Origin: Sorangium cellulosum | GTDB lineage: Bacteria > Myxococcota_A > Polyangia > Polyangiales > Polyangiaceae | Assembly (NCBI GenBank): GCA_020720045.1 | Contig: DYPH01000026.1 | Location: 15,026-52,995, forward strand | DNA: 37,970 nucleotides | Direction of reading: 5' to 3' | In this document: piece by piece, positions 1 through 29,595 of the stretch | Layout: each line of letters starts with the position of its first letter | How positions within the stretch are numbered: the stretch's first letter is position 1 | Made by a program: the position numbers and the translations under genes | The notes under the pieces: model-generated | Told to the model about the DNA's origin: nothing | Database searches by the model: none | What the model saw: the letters and a program-made list of their open reading frames with translations, nothing else

Positions 1-130
1 CTCGCGACGCCTCTGCCAGGGAATTCGCTGGCGGTCGCGAACGGACGGGCCCGAGTGGAAGTGGGCCCGCCGTCTCTCGCGACGCCTCTGCCAGGGAATT
101 CGCTGGCGGTCGCGAACGGACGGGCCCGAG
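1..130. repeat. 75-bp-period tandem repeat, two copies
   Basis: Bases 1-55 and 76-130 are identical (55 bp), separated by a 20-bp spacer. The period is 75 bp, exactly 25 codons, so the TPR protein frame is preserved. The array touches the window edge and may contain more copies outside. Each copy holds the near-palindrome GCCAGGGAATTCGCTGGC. Copy two, including flank 68-75, also matches a sequence inside the gene at 27240-29426. Confidence 0.9.
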
Positions 131-2182
131 CGCTTCGACGGGCGGCTCTGCGAAAAAGTGTGTTTGTTCGCGCGTCGAAGCGGCAGCAACCGCTGCGCGC
201 AAATTCGGTAGCCGGACGGAGACCTCCGCCAGGAATTGAGCAATGTCTGTCGCTTCTGGCGTGAGCGCCTGCGCCTCTCGCGCGAGCCGCATCGCTGCCG
301 CTGCGTCGCCGCGAAGGGCCAACTCCATGCGTGCCCCCTGCATCAATCCCACCGCCGAGCCGACGTGGCGTCGCTCCCGCGCAACGTGGGCGAGGCGGGC
401 ATAAGCAAGCGATGCTCCTGCCAAATCTCCGCACGCCGCTCGGTACTTTGCTTCGAGGGACCGCGCCTCGGGGGCCGCGACCGCGTGCCGGGCGACGTAG
501 GCGACTTTGCTCACCGCCGCCGGCGCGTCTCCGAGCTTCTCGGCGAGTGCCTCGGCCCAGTGGACGCGACTGTGGGAGAGATCGAGACCTTCCTTCTCCC
601 CGAGCTCAATCGCCTTTTCAAACAGCGCAACGGCCCGCGCTACGCGGCCCGCTCGGAAAAGTGCGTAGCCAAGGCCGGCGAGCGCAAACGGCTCGTCGGG
701 GACCCACCGCAGGGCACGCTCATGGAGCTTGGCCGCCTCGGCGACGAATCCGTAATGATTCCAGCGATCTCCCGCATGCCGGGCGACGCGATATCGCTCG
801 CGATCGGTCGCCGCGGCGAGCTCCAAGAAATGGACGTCGGAGAGGGCATCTTCGACCTGTCCGGTGGCGAGGCGTGCGTCGATCCGCGCCCAGCGGGCAC
901 TCGTCGCTTGCGGCGCCCAGGCGAGCGCCTGATCGAGGAGCGGGAGGCGCCCCCACGGTTCGTCGGCGCAGTCGGCGGCCGCCTCAAACAGGGCGCCGGC
1001 GAGCGGTGCGAGCGGCTCTGTTTCCGCCGCATGGACGTAGGCCGCCTGCGCGCGCGTGCGGTGCCCCGCTTCGAGGGCGACGTCCCCCTCCAGCGCACCG
1101 AGGAGCCGGCCACGGAGGCCCGCCGCCCGCTCGTCGAGGAGTGCGAGCGCCACTTCGGCGCGCCCGCCTGCGGAGGCGTCGATGGCACAAAGCCTCGTAA
1201 TTACGCCGCCATGCCCGGGAGCGCCGGCGAGGAGGCGGAGCGCTTCCGTCCGTGCGCCTTCCCGATCGCCAGCGAGCAGTGCGTCGTCGACGCCGGCGAG
1301 ATAGGTGCATTCTTCAAAGATTGGGACGCAAACCAATTCGGCGGCCGGCGGCGTGCCGTGATCGGCGAGGCGGAGGGTCGCGACGCCCCCTTCCGTGGTG
1401 AATCGTGAAGGCGTCAGCGCGGCGACGTCCGGCGTGCGCGCGCCCCCCTTCGGGAAGAGATCGCGCGCGACCGTCTGGGCGACTGCCGAGAGCCGGTAGA
1501 GGCCGCCGCGACGGTCTGCGAGCGCTCCGAAGACCCCCGCAGCGACCCGCGCGGCGAGCACGGGGGCCGGCTCGGTGAGGCCGATCCCGCGAGCGTCGTG
1601 GATCGCGAAGGCGACCGTCGTCCCCCCCTCGGGGTCGGTCGTTGTCGTCGAAGCGACCGGTCCAAAAGCGATTGAAAATGCGAGAACTTTCGCGCGCTCG
1701 CCCTGGCCCCAAAGATCCGGGGTGTTGGCGATGGCGAGGTGGAAAAGTGGACCGTCGAATTGAACGACGACTTCCGGTGTCGTCGCCACCAGCAGGCCAC
1801 GGAGTTTCGGCGCGAGCCAGCGACTGAGGTCGTGGGCGGTCGCTTCGACGGTGAGCCGTACGAGTCGGCCGCGCTTATGGCGGAAGCGCGCGAGGCCTCC
1901 CGTGACGTCGACGGGGAATCTTACCTGGTCGAGGGCGGTCGTCGCCTCGGTCACCGTCACCGGGCCGACCTTCCACGGCGCCCCAAGCTCCAGTCCAAGG
2001 CCCGATTTCGCAATCGCCAAGCGGAGAAGCGGCGTGTCGGTCGCCGCCTCAACGGTCGTCGCGTCGGCCGACCGCGAACGCACCTTCGCCGCCGCGGACA
2101 AACCCGCTCGCCGATCCGGCGTCTCGCTGGGCGGGGACGTGTCGGCCGTCGGCGCGGTCGGGGGGAGTGGGCGATGAGTCAT
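1..2182 (-). CDS. TPR-type protein, C-terminus cut by window edge
   Basis: One minus-strand frame stays open from an ATG at 2182 to base 1, giving 727 residues without a stop, so the C-terminus lies outside the window. The N-terminus (about 1-40) is Pro/Ser/Thr-rich and shows no signal peptide. Residues 45-330 have a beta-rich character I do not recognise. Residues 340-660 are Ala/Leu-rich helical pairs with TPR spacing, for example AEAAKLHERALRWVPDEP and AVALFEKAIELGEKEG. The last visible stretch holds two copies of a 25-residue unit containing RSRPPANSLAEASR. A GGGGAAG purine run precedes the ATG. The gene is divergent from the helicase at 2290. Its role is probably protein-protein interaction, but no specific function can be assigned. 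Long plus-strand frames over this region read as antisense shadows. Confidence 0.75.
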   Translation of the reverse strand, partial: MTHRPLPPTAPTADTSPPSETPDRRAGLSAAAKVRSRSADATTVEAATDTPLLRLAIAKSGLGLELGAPWKVGPVTVTEATTALDQVRFPVDVTGGLARFRHKRGRLVRLTVEATAHDLSRWLAPKLRGLLVATTPEVVVQFDGPLFHLAIANTPDLWGQGERAKVLAFSIAFGPVASTTTTDPEGGTTVAFAIHDARGIGLTEPAPVLAARVAAGVFGALADRRGGLYRLSAVAQTVARDLFPKGGARTPDVAALTPSRFTTEGGVATLRLADHGTPPAAELVCVPIFEECTYLAGVDDALLAGDREGARTEALRLLAGAPGHGGVITRLCAIDASAGGRAEVALALLDERAAGLRGRLLGALEGDVALEAGHRTRAQAAYVHAAETEPLAPLAGALFEAAADCADEPWGRLPLLDQALAWAPQATSARWARIDARLATGQVEDALSDVHFLELAAATDRERYRVARHAGDRWNHYGFVAEAAKLHERALRWVPDEPFALAGLGYALFRAGRVARAVALFEKAIELGEKEGLDLSHSRVHWAEALAEKLGDAPAAVSKVAYVARHAVAAPEARSLEAKYRAACGDLAGASLAYARLAHVARERRHVGSAVGLMQGARMELALRGDAAAAMRLAREAQALTPEATDIAQFLAEVSVRLPNLRAAVAAASTREQTHFFAEPPVEALGPVRSRPPANSLAEASRETAGPLPLGPVRSRPPANSLAEASR

Positions 2183-4410: not shown

Positions 4411-5387
4411 GGAAAGACCTCGGTGGCAGGCGTCGCTTCAATTAGATTAAAATTGCCTGCGTTGAAGACGATATCGCCGCCATCGATCTCGGTCAGTACG
4501 TCCCGGAAGCGCGCACCATAGATGATCGCCGGGGCCTCAAACGAATGCTGGCCGTGAACCGTCTGTCCGGTGGTTTCGTCGGTCCCCATCACGCTGACGA
4601 GAATCTCTGCTTCGTCGGCGAGCAGGGAGTCGGGCGTCGCCCCAAAGAGCGGGCTGCTCGCATCGACGCGATGCAGGAGGTTCCACGACCGTGAGAGGGC
4701 GGCGATGCGATCACGTACCGGGACGAGCGGCGTCAATTCGTAGAAGGTGACCCCTTCGGCGGTCTTCCGGGTGCGCATCAAATCGAGGTGAACCCGTGCC
4801 TCTACAATCCGATTTCCGCGATCATTTCCGAGGCGCACCGAGAGCGTAGGCATGCCATCCCAGAGGGTGACGACCGCCTGCGGCGCGAAAATGAGGCGCC
4901 CCTTTACCTGGGAAAACTTGGCGAAAATCATTCCCGTGCAGAGTGCAACCAAAACGAGGCTGTAGACCGATTCGGCGACGACGACGAGATGGGCCGCCAG
5001 GGACGAGGGGACCATCGACCCGTAGCCGATCGTCCCCATCGTCTGGACGCTGAAGAAAAAAGCTTGTGAAAAAGAGTGGTTGGGTAGTCCTTGGACGCCG
5101 CCAACGAGTGCGTATAGGGCTGCAAAGAGGGCGTTCGACGCCAGGTAAACGGCGGCGATGACCCCGATGGCGGAGCCCCACGAGAGGCCTAGAAACCTGT
5201 GATAGCCGTCGCGAAAGGGGCGGAAGGGCGCGCCAACGACTCGAATTTCATAGGTTCCTGTCGGCACCCGGCCGCGTTCCTTCCGAGCGCGGAGGTAGCG
5301 GGAGAGGCGTTCGCGTCGAATTCCGCGCCGTCTCCCGCTTCGCGGACGGACGCGGTCGGTGGCTCGCGGTCGGCGGTGAGCATCCAT
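4392..5387 (-). CDS. inward-rectifier-type potassium channel (KirBac-like)
   Basis: This is an inner-membrane K+ channel of 331 residues, the usual KirBac size. The order is a basic cytoplasmic N-terminus with an amphipathic segment (FRPFRDGYHRFLGLSWG), TM1 at about 68-92, a pore helix and the selectivity filter TIGYG at about 119-123. TM2 follows at about 128-156. The rest is a beta-rich cytoplasmic C-terminal domain with the family-typical run AEILVSVMGTDETTGQTVH. I chose the ATG at 5387 because GGAG lies nine bases upstream; longer frames would run into enolase. The ligand and physiological trigger cannot be read from the sequence. Confidence 0.9.
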   Translation of the reverse strand: MDAHRRPRATDRVRPRSGRRRGIRRERLSRYLRARKERGRVPTGTYEIRVVGAPFRPFRDGYHRFLGLSWGSAIGVIAAVYLASNALFAALYALVGGVQGLPNHSFSQAFFFSVQTMGTIGYGSMVPSSLAAHLVVVAESVYSLVLVALCTGMIFAKFSQVKGRLIFAPQAVVTLWDGMPTLSVRLGNDRGNRIVEARVHLDLMRTRKTAEGVTFYELTPLVPVRDRIAALSRSWNLLHRVDASSPLFGATPDSLLADEAEILVSVMGTDETTGQTVHGQHSFEAPAIIYGARFRDVLTEIDGGDIVFNAGNFNLIEATPATEVFPYTADL

Positions 5388-6966: not shown

Positions 6967-8994
6967 ATGCCCCTCGACCGCACGCTTCTCTCCCACCTTC
7001 TTCGCGAAGGGGCGACCGATCTCGCCCTCGTCGGTGGACGTCTCCCAAGTGTACGTATTTCTGGGAAATTTGAAGCGATTGATTCCGTCGCACCGACCTC
7101 GGATGAGTTGCTGACCTTCCTCTTCGCCGTCGGCGGCAGTCGCTACCTCGAGGACCTTGGGCCTCGCCCGGTCAGTTGGCGAAATCGCTCGGAGGGGGTT
7201 GGCTCTTTGCTGTTTTCTGCGCTCTCCAACAACGATGTCGTTCAGGCAAAGGTGGTGTTGGAGCAACGGGATCCGAAGGGCGTGGCGCGGAGCGCGTTCA
7301 AGGCGGACCCGAGCGCGCGAGATGCGCCAAAGCCGGCCGCAAATCCCCAAGGCGTTGTGATTTCTGAGGGGCCAGGCATCCGCACGGAGATGCCGACGAC
7401 CCAGCTGAAGAAGGCGGCCCCGGTTGTCGCGGCGGGGAGGCCCTCGGCTCACGACCTCCCAAAGGTCGAGTTGCCGGCCGTCGACCTGCCGCCCCTGCAG
7501 CTCGCCGATGATCCGCGCAGGCAAGACCTAATTGCCACGCAACCATCGAGAAAAGTAGAGCATTTCCTTCCGCCGGAGGAGAACGCGCCCCCCTCGTCGG
7601 ACGGCGAGCCGCCGTCGGCGACCAACCCGTTTGGACACTCGATGGCGATGGCGCCCGTCCAGACGTTCGTCGCCCAATTCGCGGCGAACTTCGCGGCAGA
7701 GACGGCGGAAAAGGCGAAGTCGCTGCCCCCGCCGCCCCCTCCTGGGGCGAGTTCACGGTCGTTCCCGCCGCCCGGAAATTCGTTGGCGGGACGCGCCCCC
7801 GAGGCGGCAAAAGAGAACCCTGGCACGCGCCCTTCGGTGCGCGCGGTCCCGATCGCCGTGGTTGTAGCCGGCGTCGCGCCGCAGCCGGCCCCTGCGCCAT
7901 TTGTTCCGGCGCCGGCGCCACCGATGCCGGACGTCTTTGGAGCGATGCTCACCGGCCTCCGTCGACGTCGTGCGAGCGATCTCCACGTCGTCGCCGGCCG
8001 ACCGGCTCTTTTTCGCGTCGCCGGTCAATTGGTGCCCGAAGGGCCGGTCCTCGATCCAAAGCTCGTTTCGCAGATTGTTCAGGCGATCGTCCCGATGGCA
8101 CGAAAGCAGTCGCTCGAAGAGTTGGGGGCGACCGACTTTGCCTATGAGTCGCCTGCCCACGGGCGCTTCCGCGTGAACGCATCTCGGCAGCGCACGGGAT
8201 ATAAGCTGTGCATGCGTGCAATTCCAACGGAAGTTCCGACGCTTACGTCGCTCGGTTTGCCGCAGGGGCTCGCCGCCGCCATCGGTCACCACCAAGGGCT
8301 CGTGCTCGTTACCGGACCGTCCGGCCACGGGAAGACGACCACACTTGCTGCACTGCTCGACCTCGTCAATGCGCGGAGTCCCCAGCACGTCATTACCGTG
8401 GAAGACCCCGTTGAATTCGTTCATCCGCGCAAGCAGGCGGTGCTCTCCCAGCGGGAAGTTGGCAGCCACACCAAGACCTTTCAATCTGCCTTGAAGGGGT
8501 CGTTGCGCGAAGACCCCGACGTCATTGTCGTCGGCGAACTACGCGACGTCGAAACGGTGAAAATGGCGCTTTCAGCGTCGGAGACGGGGCACCTTGTCCT
8601 CGCCACCATGAACGCGCCGAGCGCCGCGAAGACCATCGATCGCTTGATCGACATGTTCCCCCCGGCCGACCAGGCCCAGGCCCGCGTGACGCTTGCCGCC
8701 GCGCTCCGGATGGTCGCCTGCCAGCGTCTGGTTCCGAGCGCCGATGGGCATGGGCTCCATGTCGCTTGCGAAATGCTTCCGGGGAGTATCGCGCTCTTCT
8801 CGCTCATTCGCGACGGCCGTACCTTCCAGATTCCCAGTTTGATGCAGCGAGGAAAAGCCCTCGGAATCGTTCGCCTCGACGAGTCTCTTGCGGAACTCGT
8901 GTTCCGGGGAAAGGTCTCGCTTGAGGAGGCAAAGGCCTTCGCCGAGAGCGCGACCGACCTCGAAAACTTCCTGAACGTTCTCCGGAAAGGCTGA
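6967..8994 (+). CDS. PilT-family ATPase with duplicated N-domain and long linker
   Basis: This is a 675-residue twitching/secretion ATPase; PilT itself is about 345. Residues 1-105 resemble a stray PilT N-terminal domain (LLREGATDLALVGGRLPSVRISG, compare the family's gASDlHl..G.pP..R). Residues 110-315 are a Pro/Ala-rich, presumably disordered linker. Residues 320-675 are a full PilT-like unit: ASDLHVVAGRPALFRVAG, Walker A GPSGHGKTTT (450-459), an ITVEDPVEFVH Asp box and Walker B VIVVGELRD (519-527). The His box reads TGHLVLATMNAPSA: H542 is kept, but the usual second His is Asn549. The retraction-type motif is degenerate (ALFSLIRDGRT). The gene lies 7 bp upstream of a second PilT-like gene. 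No pilin or platform genes are nearby, so involvement with type IV pili is inferred from family only. Confidence 0.85.
   Translation: MPLDRTLLSHLLREGATDLALVGGRLPSVRISGKFEAIDSVAPTSDELLTFLFAVGGSRYLEDLGPRPVSWRNRSEGVGSLLFSALSNNDVVQAKVVLEQRDPKGVARSAFKADPSARDAPKPAANPQGVVISEGPGIRTEMPTTQLKKAAPVVAAGRPSAHDLPKVELPAVDLPPLQLADDPRRQDLIATQPSRKVEHFLPPEENAPPSSDGEPPSATNPFGHSMAMAPVQTFVAQFAANFAAETAEKAKSLPPPPPPGASSRSFPPPGNSLAGRAPEAAKENPGTRPSVRAVPIAVVVAGVAPQPAPAPFVPAPAPPMPDVFGAMLTGLRRRRASDLHVVAGRPALFRVAGQLVPEGPVLDPKLVSQIVQAIVPMARKQSLEELGATDFAYESPAHGRFRVNASRQRTGYKLCMRAIPTEVPTLTSLGLPQGLAAAIGHHQGLVLVTGPSGHGKTTTLAALLDLVNARSPQHVITVEDPVEFVHPRKQAVLSQREVGSHTKTFQSALKGSLREDPDVIVVGELRDVETVKMALSASETGHLVLATMNAPSAAKTIDRLIDMFPPADQAQARVTLAAALRMVACQRLVPSADGHGLHVACEMLPGSIALFSLIRDGRTFQIPSLMQRGKALGIVRLDESLAELVFRGKVSLEEAKAFAESATDLENFLNVLRKG
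7771..7803. repeat. possible degenerate copy of the dispersed NSLA element
   Basis: Within the PilT-like linker, bases 7771-7803 encode PGNSLAGRAPE (269-279). The run GGAAATTCGTTGGCGG differs at two of 16 positions from the core at 1-130, and the downstream GGACG..GCCCC run is also shared. Relative to the other copies, three codons (x-A-N) between NSLA and GRA are absent. The flanking sequence does not match, so common origin is plausible but not proven. Confidence 0.4.
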
Positions 8995-16977: not shown

Positions 16978-18452
16978 CCGACCCGTCTGTTCGCGACAGC
17001 CAGCAAATGCGCTCGCCGCGGCGTCACGACAGACGGCCGGTCGACACGGAAGGGGCGCGTTCGTCGCGCCTGCTTCGCGAGTCACTCGTCGTCGGAGTTG
17101 TCGCGGCAATCGCTCGATTTGTTATGATCTTTTGGGCGGCCCCCCGGTTTCCCGCCGCCGCCGACGGGACCTTCTACCACCGCCTCGCAAGTCGCCTTGC
17201 GATCGGTGCAGGATACACGTGGCTGTGGGACGACGGCGCCGTCACGCCGGCCGCCCACTATCCGGTCGGCTACCCGGCGCTTTTGGCTGGCCCCTACGCG
17301 CTGTTTGGCGCGTCGCCGACGGTCGCGATGGCGCTTGCCGGCCTCCTCGGGACGATCGCTGCAGTCTGCACCTACCGCGTCGCCGCCCGAGAAATGCGTG
17401 GTCGGGCGCCGTTGCTGGCTGGGCTGCTGGTCGCCCTTCATCCGGCGCTGCTTCCGTACACGGTGGCGCTGATGACCGAAGGGGTGACCGCCTCTCTACT
17501 CGCGATCGTCCTCGCCTGCCGGGAGCCGCGCGGCGGCGCGTCGCCGGTTCGGCGCCTTGGGCTCACCCTCGCTGCGAGCGCACTGGGCGGTCTTCTTGTG
17601 CTCGTTCGTCCACAAAATCTCCTGTTATTGCCGTTTCTTGCGCTCGCAACGAGCCCGCCGGGCTCCCTTTGGAAGCAGCGCCTCCTCCGCGCCGCGCTCG
17701 GGCCGCTTCTCGCCCTCGCGTTCGTGCTGCCGTGGACCGCTCGAAACTGCCGCGAGATGCATCGCTGTGCGCTGGTGAGCGTGAACGGCGGCTGGAACCT
17801 TCTCATCGGCGCCCACGCGACGTCCGGCGGCTGGAGCCCGGTTCCGGTCCCTTCTGCGTGCAAAGAGGTGTGGGACGAGGCTGGAAAAGACCTTTGTTTT
17901 GAGCGCGCCGCGAAGAAAGATATCGCGGAGCACCCCGTTTCGTTTCTCGCACTCGTGCCACGAAAGCTAGCAAATACCTTCGAATATGTGGGGGCGGGTG
18001 GCTGGTACCTTCATACTTCAAATCCAGTAGCCTTCCCAGAACATGCGAAGAACGTTCTCGGGACAATCGAGACCATTTTCCTTCGATGTGTCCTCGCGAT
18101 GGCGCTCTTCGCGCAGGCGTCGCGTTGGGGAACGGGGGGGCGTCCCGCCCGCTGGAAGTGGGCCGCTGCCGTTGCCGGGGTCGCGCTGGTTTCGGCGACG
18201 TTCGGCTACCTGGCGTTGGCGGCGCTCGCCGTCCGGAAGCGCGCGACCCCCCTCGAAATGACGACCGCGGCCGCGGTTTTGTCCACGGCCGCGGTGCATG
18301 CGGTCTTCTTCGGCGCCGGCCGCTACGCGCTCGTCGTGCTGCCGTTCGTTGCGGTGCTCGCCGCCCGGGCCTTCAGTAGCCGGTTGCCGGGCTTGTTCTC
18401 CCCTTCGGCGGCGTTAACGGCTTCGTCGGAGCGGGCAAAACCGGTTTCTTGA
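16974..18452 (+). CDS. GT-C-type membrane glycosyltransferase
   Basis: This 492-residue polytopic membrane protein has a basic N-terminus and roughly nine to ten hydrophobic segments. The first periplasmic loop contains an acidic site, AAADGTFYHRLASRL, then HYPVGYPALLAGPYALFG, the pattern of ArnT/PMT-like GT-C (family 39-type) transferases using lipid-linked sugars. A larger soluble loop (about 260-350) holds several Cys. The start is a GTG overlapping the Maf stop. The substrate is unknown; a cell-envelope or glycolipid role is likely. The last 80 bp overlap the end of the convergent gene, which is unusually long for a tail-to-tail overlap. Confidence 0.8.
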   Translation: MTDPSVRDSQQMRSPRRHDRRPVDTEGARSSRLLRESLVVGVVAAIARFVMIFWAAPRFPAAADGTFYHRLASRLAIGAGYTWLWDDGAVTPAAHYPVGYPALLAGPYALFGASPTVAMALAGLLGTIAAVCTYRVAAREMRGRAPLLAGLLVALHPALLPYTVALMTEGVTASLLAIVLACREPRGGASPVRRLGLTLAASALGGLLVLVRPQNLLLLPFLALATSPPGSLWKQRLLRAALGPLLALAFVLPWTARNCREMHRCALVSVNGGWNLLIGAHATSGGWSPVPVPSACKEVWDEAGKDLCFERAAKKDIAEHPVSFLALVPRKLANTFEYVGAGGWYLHTSNPVAFPEHAKNVLGTIETIFLRCVLAMALFAQASRWGTGGRPARWKWAAAVAGVALVSATFGYLALAALAVRKRATPLEMTTAAAVLSTAAVHAVFFGAGRYALVVLPFVAVLAARAFSSRLPGLFSPSAALTASSERAKPVS

Positions 18453-27243: not shown

Positions 27244-29426
27244 GGTTTCACCGGTCCCATCCAGGCGATGTGCACTTCCGGGACCGTCTTCCCGTCGGCG
27301 GTGACGGAGCGGACCACTGTTCCGTAACCCTTTGCTTTCGTTCCGATTCCAAAGCTAGCCCCTTCGGGAATCACGACGCGCACTAGGCACCCACCCTTCG
27401 CACACCCGCGTTTCGTATCGAAGAGGGCGAGGCGCTGGCGCCCGGAGACCTTCCCCTCAAGGAGTGTCCCTTCAAGGGCGACCCACTTTCCGCGGGCCGC
27501 ATCGCCGTCGACAAACCCGTCGTAGCCGAGAGGAGCTGCCGATTCCGCGGCGACGACGGCGCTCTTTGCGTCTTTGAAGTGTTTGATTTGCCCGTCGATT
27601 CGGCGGAGCGCACTGGCCGGCCGCGCCGCCGTCACGGAAAATGGACCGTCGGCTGCTTGCGGACCCGCGTCGATCTCAAACAGGCCTTTTTCGTCGGCCG
27701 TCGCGCTCTTTTTGCCGCCCGACGAGACGACTTCAAGCTTCGCGCCGGGCGTCGTCTGGCCGCCAACGATCAAGTGCTGGTCGCCAATCAAATACTGGAC
27801 GGGGGCCGGAGAATCGGCGCGAAGGGGGACGATCTGTGCACCGAGCTTGGTGGTTCCCCCTTCCTTGCTGCCGTCGGGGAACACGATCGCCCATTTTACC
27901 GCCTTTTCAAGCGTTTCTGCCTTCGCTGAACTGCCTTGTGCGAGGGGGCCGAAGGGGAGCTTGTAGAGGCCAATCCCCTTCGCATCGATGGGGACGGGGA
28001 CGCCATCGACGGTCACCACCGAATTCGGGAGGACTGCGAATTGAAGGTCGACGCTTGGGGTGGAGTCGCCCAGATTGCCGTCGTCGGCCTTCACGCGAAA
28101 ATTGAGCGGGACTCGCAAATGAATCTCTTCGTCGCGGCCGAATCCGGGGCGATCCACTTTGACGGTGAGTGGGTTCTCCCCGACGAAGAGCGGCTGCGGG
28201 ACCGCGAGCTGTGCTTTCCCGCTGGCGAGCGTTGCGGTCGCGGTTCCGAGAGCGAGCGTCGTCCCGTCGGCACACTTTTCACAGGTAACTTCGAGGACAT
28301 CGTGCCCCTTCGCGTCGACGGTCGCGCGGGCCGTAAGCGGTGAACCGCCGCGGAGGAGGAAAAAGCCGCCGACCCCACCAACCGCGAGCAAGAGCGCCGC
28401 AAGTCCGCCCACAACCGCGGCGACCGGCACGCCGCTTTTCTTCGGCTCTGCGAGCACCGCCGGCGGCGGTGGGAGCGACTCGGCGACAAACGGGGCCGGT
28501 GCCGGGGCGACCGGCGGAAGCGTCATCGGTCGCTCGCGCGCCGCTTGGCGGATCTCTGGCGTTGCCGTCACGCCGAGGAGGGTCTGCGCCTGGTTCGCAA
28601 CTTTCACCGGGATCGGCTTGGGGGCCCGTCCGTTTGCGATCGCCAGCGAATTTTCTGGAAGCTGCGTCGCGAGAGACGGCGCTTCTTGCGGTGGCGCCGG
28701 CGGTGGAATGGCGACCGGTGGACCGGCCGTCGGCGGCGGCGCGGCGGCCGGCGTAATTCTTTCGTAGGCGACGCCGACAAGTGTTTGTGCTTGAATTTTA
28801 CGTACTTGATCGACCGGGGCTGGCGCCGGTGCCGGTGCCGCCGTTACGGACGCAAGCGACTGTGCGACGCTTGCAGGCACGCCAACCATGGTCGCTGCGC
28901 CGATGCGAGGGCGTGCCTCCGGAGGCTTCGCTGTCTCGGCCGCTTCGGCGGAGAGAATCTCTTGGTAAGCCTGGATCGGGTTCGTCGCGACGGCGGTCGA
29001 CATGTTCTCGTAGTGGAGTCCGTCGAGGTCTCCTCCCGAGGCCGCTTTTGGAGCGCCGTCGACCGCTGCAAACTGCACCATTGTCGCGCTCCCGGGGCGC
29101 TTGAACGCAGCCGCCATCGCCGCTGCCCGAACCGCCTCCCCCACGTGAAGGTCGACCGCAGTAGCTGCAGAGTGCACAGACTGCCCGTCGGTCGTCACCG
29201 GATCTACCGGGACCAGGCGCGGCCCGTCGTCACCGCCTTGGGTGAACGCGTAACCAGCCATGGTTGCAGCATCTTTTACGGCGCGGGTCGCTTCGAGGAG
29301 GTCCTCTTCCGTCGCATCGTCCTTCGCGGGCGCCTTGGCGGGGACCGCAGGCGTGGTGGAGCCGCAACCGCCGCAGAATCGTGCCCCCTCACTCAGACCG
29401 TAACCGCAAACCGGGCAAATCCCCAT
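27240..29426 (-). CDS. zinc-ribbon single-TM protein with Pro-rich region
   Basis: The protein has 728 residues. An N-terminal double-CxxC zinc ribbon uses C4, C7, C18 and C21 (CPVCGYG...FCGGCG). Residues 25-330 are low-complexity Ala/Pro-rich with five short Thr motifs of the form T-[M/L]-x-[G/Q] at T55, T115, T179, T215 and T282. The NSLA element lies at about 249-268. A single TM segment (VAAVVGGLAALLLAVGGVGGFFLL) spans about 335-358. The C-terminal 370 residues are beta-rich, Ig-like, with CEKCADG and a closing domain containing RGCAKGGC. The topology would place the zinc ribbon in the cytoplasm and the beta domains outside. Such proteins are common in Myxococcota, but the role is unknown. 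Confidence 0.8.
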   Translation of the reverse strand: MGICPVCGYGLSEGARFCGGCGSTTPAVPAKAPAKDDATEEDLLEATRAVKDAATMAGYAFTQGGDDGPRLVPVDPVTTDGQSVHSAATAVDLHVGEAVRAAAMAAAFKRPGSATMVQFAAVDGAPKAASGGDLDGLHYENMSTAVATNPIQAYQEILSAEAAETAKPPEARPRIGAATMVGVPASVAQSLASVTAAPAPAPAPVDQVRKIQAQTLVGVAYERITPAAAPPPTAGPPVAIPPPAPPQEAPSLATQLPENSLAIANGRAPKPIPVKVANQAQTLLGVTATPEIRQAARERPMTLPPVAPAPAPFVAESLPPPPAVLAEPKKSGVPVAAVVGGLAALLLAVGGVGGFFLLRGGSPLTARATVDAKGHDVLEVTCEKCADGTTLALGTATATLASGKAQLAVPQPLFVGENPLTVKVDRPGFGRDEEIHLRVPLNFRVKADDGNLGDSTPSVDLQFAVLPNSVVTVDGVPVPIDAKGIGLYKLPFGPLAQGSSAKAETLEKAVKWAIVFPDGSKEGGTTKLGAQIVPLRADSPAPVQYLIGDQHLIVGGQTTPGAKLEVVSSGGKKSATADEKGLFEIDAGPQAADGPFSVTAARPASALRRIDGQIKHFKDAKSAVVAAESAAPLGYDGFVDGDAARGKWVALEGTLLEGKVSGRQRLALFDTKRGCAKGGCLVRVVIPEGASFGIGTKAKGYGTVVRSVTADGKTVPEVHIAWMGPVKP
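28621..28681. repeat. dispersed NSLA element inside the zinc-ribbon protein gene
   Basis: The reverse complement of 28621-28681 aligns without gaps to 68-128, with 53 of 61 bases identical by hand count, including an 18-base exact block (CGCCGTCTCTCGCGACGC). Here it is in sense orientation to the host gene and encodes SLATQLPENSLAIANGRAP. In the TPR gene the same sequence lies antisense and is read as RSRPPANSLAEASR. Confidence 0.75.
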
Positions 29427-29595
29427 AGGCGGCGGAACCTATCGTGCTCTCGGCCCCTTGGGAACCATCGCGTTCTCCGATCCGGCGTCTCGCCGGGCGG
29501 CGACAATTGAGAACGGCGGAGGTGTCGCTCGGAAATCCTCTCGGTCCTGGCAACCCAGTACCCAAATAGGGGGAGCTGTATTAGGCGAGCCCGCC

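Follow-up and report, generated by a model that had tools for sequence, protein, structure and literature searches.

A dispersed 75-bp hairpin element of one myxobacterial genus with in-frame copies in unrelated genes

The left end of the DNA analysed here carries a palindromic sequence inside a TPR gene, and the same sequence lies inverted in a zinc-ribbon gene further downstream. This raises the question of what kind of sequence can stay open in the frames of two unrelated genes and in both orientations. In-frame palindromic inserts are best known from Rickettsia, an obligate intracellular genus in which they could result from drift in small populations. The window, i.e. the whole stretch of 37,970 nt that was analysed (C294:15026-52995), belongs to genome G000, a GC-rich assembly of 6.34 Mb in 357 contigs. 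G001 is a sister genome of the same genus. Our analysis suggests, at a probability of roughly 0.8, that the sequence (element A) is a dispersed, non-autonomous hairpin element of one myxobacterial genus which is mostly read through in frame where it lies in genes. The first-pass annotation had likened it to a Rickettsia palindromic element (RPE) in frame in unrelated genes. This proposal is supported by copy number, by an empty site with a filled counterpart and by distant orthologues free of the element.

Copies in the window and anatomy of the unit

The features of the window are listed in Table 1. An assembly gap of 100 N ends directly before position 1 inside the left-end array and took the 5' part of the first copy, so that the copies counted there are a lower bound. 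The ~60-bp sequence described earlier for the left end and, inverted, near 28621-28681 was recovered as copies 75 bp apart (1-52 and 60-127) and an inverted copy at 28622-28681. Its identity, counted by hand as 53 of 61 bases, agrees with an inverted copy of 60 nt that is 88% complementary without gaps. The peptides quoted for the two hosts are likewise correct (SLATQLPENSLAIANGRA in the zinc-ribbon gene, RSRPPANSLAEASR in the TPR gene). The inventory of copies needed revision beyond the left-end and 28622 copies: the copy at 16981-17041, which is also present in G001, had been missed, and the weaker copy placed at 7771-7803 is doubtful and not established by its profile score.

Table 1. Repeat copies and host genes in the window.
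Feature	Position	Strand	Evidence
Element A copy, model positions 17-68	1..52	+	nhmmer 53.1 bits, E 1.6e-14
TPR gene, off left edge, array inside	2..2083	-	gene call
Spacer between both left-end copies, 10 bp	53..62	+	sequence; period 75
Element A, complete (model 1-68), antisense to TPR gene, frame -0 (GPVRSRPPANSLAEASRETAGPL)	60..127	+	75.1 bits, E 2.2e-21
Family B copy, 45-bp unit, arms GCCGTCTC...GACGGAC	5307..5351	+	49.1 bits, E 3.7e-13
Doubtful remnant of element A	7765..7789	+	9.7 bits, E 0.56
Element A, diverged, 4 bp 3' of gene ending 16977	16981..17041	-	39.3 bits, E 3.2e-10
Zinc-ribbon host gene, 728 aa	27240..29426	-	ribbon by eye; no Pfam match at 1e-5
Element A, frame +2 of zinc-ribbon gene (PSLATQLPENSLAIANGRA)	28622..28681	-	56.0 bits, E 2e-15; frame, flank scores

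The unit of element A measures 75 bp and consists of a 10-bp spacer followed by a palindrome of 65 bp with GGGCCC feet. Units are often arranged head-to-tail. The consensus derived from an alignment of 75 copies is GGGCCCGCCGTCTCTCGCGACGCCGCTGCCAGCAAATTCGCTGGCGGTCGCGAACGGACGGGCCC; the spacer ahead of the palindrome is close to CTGTNGAAGT and is preceded on its 5' side by a GGCCCC-like sequence. Among 88 arrays, 66 hold a single copy, 17 two, four three and one four copies, and half of the steps between neighbouring copies (14 of 28) are exactly 75 bp. Steps are multiples of three in all 10 cases within genes and in 16 of 20 outside, the four exceptions stemming from two arrays.

The DNA fold was evaluated against shuffled sequences. 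It is more stable on both strands (z -6.2 and -5.4), while one variant with a long core folds weakly (z -2.3). Changes on both sides of a pair were found in 26 cells versus 5.3 (SD 2.1) in shuffles (75 of 93 distinct 65-mers). In helix 2, four of six pairs are compensated by exchanges from T-A to C-G, C-G to G-C and A-T to T-A, mostly within one set of six related variants and therefore reflecting few independent events. Helix 3 is the variable core and is paired in just 81% of the cells. Taken together, the compensatory changes support the hairpin. A sub-family in which both inner arms are exchanged (CCGGCGTCG...CGACGCCG) with pairing kept was observed at L094, L138, L018, L024 and L164.

Two further dispersed repeats were seen. 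Family B is a second palindromic family with a tandem unit of 45 bp (15 codons), whose arms GCCGTCTC...GACGGAC are common with element A. Besides the window copy, which is itself among the 29 seeds of the family profile, it was seen at L126:3164-3298, L086:1719-1853, L220:4-273 and L230-L233. The G000 loci examined hold 29 clusters (not deduplicated, with the profile seeded from the same loci), and of the 19 clusters whose loci have gene calls, 7 are located within genes. The third, repeat C (TCCGATCCGGCGTCTCGCYGGGCGG), is located at window positions 2098-2139 and 29464-29505. It occurs in 12 distinct contexts in 98 G000 loci at up to three substitutions, with no occurrence in the reversed sequence, and also downstream of several RAYT-like genes (see below).

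Distribution, turnover and a candidate transposase

Copies in G000 were counted with patterns for either half of the element, allowing two mismatches. The left half gave 217 matches (117 forward, 100 reverse) against 9 (5 and 4) for the reversed control; for the right half the numbers are 188 (100 and 88) and 1 (1 and 0). By hand count among the matches listed these form ~115 clusters, a slight overcount, since the assembly contains certain contigs twice (L012/L014 and L101/L122 do not differ over thousands of bases). The genome thus carries element A at about a hundred places, far above the three copies initially noticed, and the sister genome carries the family as well, with at least 63 matches at E up to 10. 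Many contig ends of G000, like the scaffold gap before window position 1, fall within element A arrays. Since short-read assembly is interrupted at these arrays, copy numbers are lower bounds.

Beyond the genus, the matches listed for 37 other relatives include a single weak one, in G031 (79% over 66 bases, E 9.6e-5). It was rejected as a copy; the profile finds nothing in the respective locus (L032). An exact 24-mer was further searched in a collection of 84,980 species, a scan that is blind to diverged families and may omit the window's own genome. It returned 44 stretches, all from the MAG JAAFHJ01, which is labelled Myxococcales. Rfam reported only a tRNA on three loci, and the open-licence literature on myxobacterial REPs, MITEs, palindromic repeat families and RAYTs held nothing describing element A. 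Apparently, the family is restricted to one genus.

Comparison of the sister genomes reveals changes in array length. Whole 75-bp units differ at L003 (one copy versus three in G001), L008 (two versus one) and L076 (one versus up to three). Several sites are of equal length in both genomes; at others, partial loss has led to differences of 3 to 105 bp. Many of the length differences are not whole units. The clean orthologous case, which also answers the earlier call for orthologues with and without the insert, is a 72-bp in-frame difference inside a gene that is filled at L164 and empty at L023. Similarly, L180 is filled while its paralogue L101 (74-80% similar) is empty, a difference of 75 bp. 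At L088 the element is in frame in G000; the G001 copy carries an 18-bp gap and a single-base change and has a broken frame, owing either to a real mutation or to an assembly error. The site at L153 (2003-2069) is filled in G001 and shorter in G000 in an alignment that is not clean, and at L126 repeats swamp the comparison and no orthologue was recognised in G001. As the G001 loci were chosen for carrying the element, these cases do not translate into a rate of gain or loss.

Both genomes with element A also show an expansion of a RAYT-like Y1 transposase: G000 has 12 matches and G001 has 14 (64-100% identity, several being fragments at contig ends). Fourteen other members of the family have none or one each (two with one match), four members of the order have two to five, and identity outside the genus drops to 27-35%. 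Distant homologues without element A were found in 6 of 23 other relatives. Among curated families, the REP-associated tyrosine transposase matches best (E 1.8e-10 and 5.5e-9; 41 and 36 bits, below the cut-off of 80), and Pfam Y1_Tnp scores 20-23 bits, around its cut-off of 23. The transposase loci (L250-L269) form a mobile element of ~1.4 kb with palindromic ends of its own, CCTGGCCCGGGCCAGG upstream and an AAATCTAGCTGTCAGCTAGATTT-like sequence downstream. The likeness of element A to these ends scores within shuffles. At 4 of 20 loci, two of them orthologous, a copy of element A is found in the 2 kb upstream of the transposase. By its co-occurrence in this single genus, the transposase is a lead as candidate mover of element A. 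Accumulation could then proceed as follows: the element would spread into GGCC-rich sites in the form of a single-stranded hairpin, mobilised in trans by what is most likely an HUH (Y1, RAYT-like) transposase, and arrays would subsequently lengthen or shorten via slippage or unequal recombination.

Alternatively, element A could be a MITE of a DDE-type insertion sequence not yet seen, which would have inverted repeats ending in GGGCCC and would duplicate its target. Like MITEs it is short, non-coding alone and high in copy number, and its inverted feet fit such an origin. Moreover, GGCC directly adjoins the left side of the spacer in 42 of 75 arrays versus 8 of 75 in a control stretch, which could represent a duplicated GGGCCC-like target. 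However, the stretches examined contained no parent insertion sequence, i.e. no longer element sharing these ends, neither of the two empty sites shows a clean duplication, and the covariation of the inner arms is that of a hairpin, a feature not required of a plain MITE. Overall, we regard this origin as rather unlikely.

Reading frames and host proteins

Host frames were predicted from codon usage by a gene caller trained on this genome. After setting aside 15 edge arrays and 5 duplicates, 90 distinct arrays were classified. Flanks predicted to be coding in one frame surround 26 of them, 25 being open through the element and one containing a stop. In 8 arrays the flanks are coding on the same strand in different frames, which may represent neighbouring or broken genes. 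The remaining arrays have flanks on opposite strands (6), one coding side (37) or none (13). Under a looser test, G000 had 31 open arrays and one with a stop among 89, and G001 had 17 open ones and none with a stop among 50. Hence element A in a gene usually appears to add ~25 amino acids without breaking it. Genes are avoided rather than preferred: 46 of 90 arrays lie inside a called gene, whereas ~78 are expected with 86% coding DNA in the loci examined.

The frames used were counted from the spacer in 49 in-gene cases (both genomes together, looser test). Frame -2 was found 14 times, +1 13 times, +2 11 times, -0 nine times, +0 twice and -1 never. The under-used frames +0 and -1, with 2 of 49 cases, would encode the arginine- and tryptophan-rich peptides LWKWARRLSRRRCQQIRWRSRTDGP and GPSVRDRQRICWQRRRERRRAHFHR. 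Against equal use of all frames the bias is significant in G000 alone (P 3e-4) and in G001 alone (P 1e-3); a combined P was not used, since some G001 cases are orthologous to G000 cases. With palindromic GGGCCC-like targets, +1 and -1 share the target phase and differ by orientation only, as do +0 and -0. The first pair is split 13:0 (nominal P 2e-4), the second 2:9 (P 0.07), and both +0 cases (L025, L113) adjoin called genes and do not lie inside them. The unit with the common spacer is open in all six frames, which by itself is weak evidence given that the same holds for 1,202 of 20,000 shuffles. Survival in genes would rest on a length that is a multiple of three, on the spacer being open in six frames and on four frames giving tolerated small-residue peptides. 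Selection would remove copies in the two arginine- and tryptophan-rich frames and those that shift the frame.

Judged from their sequences, the hosts are mutually unrelated. Within the 25 open-frame arrays they reach 1,060 aa. A Pfam scan of 20 hosts matched 16 at 1e-5, all different: a FadJ-like multifunctional enzyme, a copper-type P-ATPase, an AAA helicase, a LuxE-like protein, two histidine kinases, PriA, TauE, an aldehyde dehydrogenase, a SNF2-type helicase, a GlcNAc transferase, HupE/UreJ, an MbnB-like protein, an FHA protein, a glyoxalase and an Mfd-like protein. The insert is located within one matched stretch in seven (L019, L077, L079, L083, L109, L111, L126), between two stretches of the same family or at their edge in two (L112, L114), and between or outside domains in the other seven. 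The first-pass annotation had placed the insertions in low-complexity or terminal regions; this does not hold, as in 9 of the 16 hosts the element falls within the matched domain. Nor are the copies in the TPR gene terminal, for in the sister genome (L159) its frame stays open through the array and beyond.

Homologues of known structure align on both sides of the insert and lack it in two hosts. For the aldehyde dehydrogenase the alignment with 5jry ends at residue 338 and restarts at 392 (362 and 385 in the chain), and for the FadJ-like enzyme it breaks between 492 and 535 in the host versus 487 and 491 in the chain. For the P-ATPase the structure alignment passes through the insert with small gaps. 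The zinc-ribbon gene has homologues in 13 other relatives (27-35% identity), 8 of whose alignments cover the insert position, and element A was found in none of these 13 loci. The G001 orthologue ends after 49 residues at a contig end, which cuts off the sister copy of the site. This gene is a weak example of a host, since its insert sits in a proline-rich linker.

Element A might instead be an ordinary intergenic REP or terminator-like repeat whose apparent in-gene copies reflect mis-called genes or sit at gene edges. The 44 of 90 arrays outside called genes, in DNA that is mostly coding, and a distance of less than 50 bp to the neighbouring stop codon in 23 of 37 listed cases are in line with this. 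It is at odds with the 25 arrays with one open coding frame, with Pfam domains on both sides of or around the insert, and with divergent gene pairs, which are not avoided (11 of 41 versus 50 of 268), unlike the REP pattern reported in PMC3733652. Overall, we consider this explanation improbable. Even less probable is a functional DNA site, such as an architectural or recombination signal, whose position is selected and whose gene insertions are by-products. The strongly conserved hairpin and sites kept between the sister genomes, e.g. 16981-17041, would suit such a role, but copy number and sites vary between genomes and no positional pattern was seen in the loci examined. A conserved protein motif of homologous proteins, suggested by a peptide open in each host, can be dismissed: the same DNA gives four different peptides, both orientations occur in genes, hosts are unrelated, many copies are intergenic and the zinc-ribbon orthologues of 13 relatives have no copy.

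Relation to known palindromic repeats

RPEs, according to PMC3733652, are palindromes dispersed in and between genes and in frame in unrelated functional proteins, and element A resembles them in each of these points. It differs by its occurrence in another phylum and in one genus, its GC-richness, the 65-bp palindrome with GGGCCC feet and the 75-bp head-to-tail arrays. Element A works like RPEs but appears to be a separate family.

The same paper reports hairpin REPs inside the ORFs of species such as Opitutus terrae, R. conorii and Thauera, and describes GTAG/CGTC REPs as 20-40 bp units that end on one side in an unpaired GTAG or CGTC tag and are mostly arranged as head-to-head dimers; it names neither Myxococcus nor Sorangium. 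Element A shares with those REPs the hairpin, the single, double and grouped copies, some intragenic positions and repair genes among the hosts (PMC3733652). In contrast, its hairpin measures 65 bp and its arrays run head-to-tail. A tag was not found: CGTC at positions 9-12 lies within the stem, mostly paired in the fold, and the consensus has no GTAG. With the RAYTs and TIRYTs and their REPtrons and TIRtrons, as outlined in PMC3733652, the system shares a RAYT-like Y1 family that is expanded in the same two genomes and has its own palindromic ends. It differs in that element A does not regularly flank the transposase genes and does not match their ends. The kind of element is thus already known from intragenic REPs and RPEs, and element A differs by the missing unpaired tag, its greater length and its head-to-tail arrays of triplet length.

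Most likely, element A is a tolerated parasite and not a part that its hosts need. A bolder reading, possible but doubtful, would be a genus-specific peptide-inserting system in which RAYT-like transposases copy a triplet-length hairpin into genes, modules of 25 residues expand in tandem, four of the six readings have been shaped to be harmless and hundreds of protein-length changes are ongoing. Either way, RPE-like behaviour is met here in a GC-rich genome of 6.3 Mb and on a scale that allows statistics on frame bias, orientation pairs and copy-number change. On this scale one can test whether hosts simply tolerate such inserts or whether the inserts contribute to new protein length, and a candidate enzyme is available.
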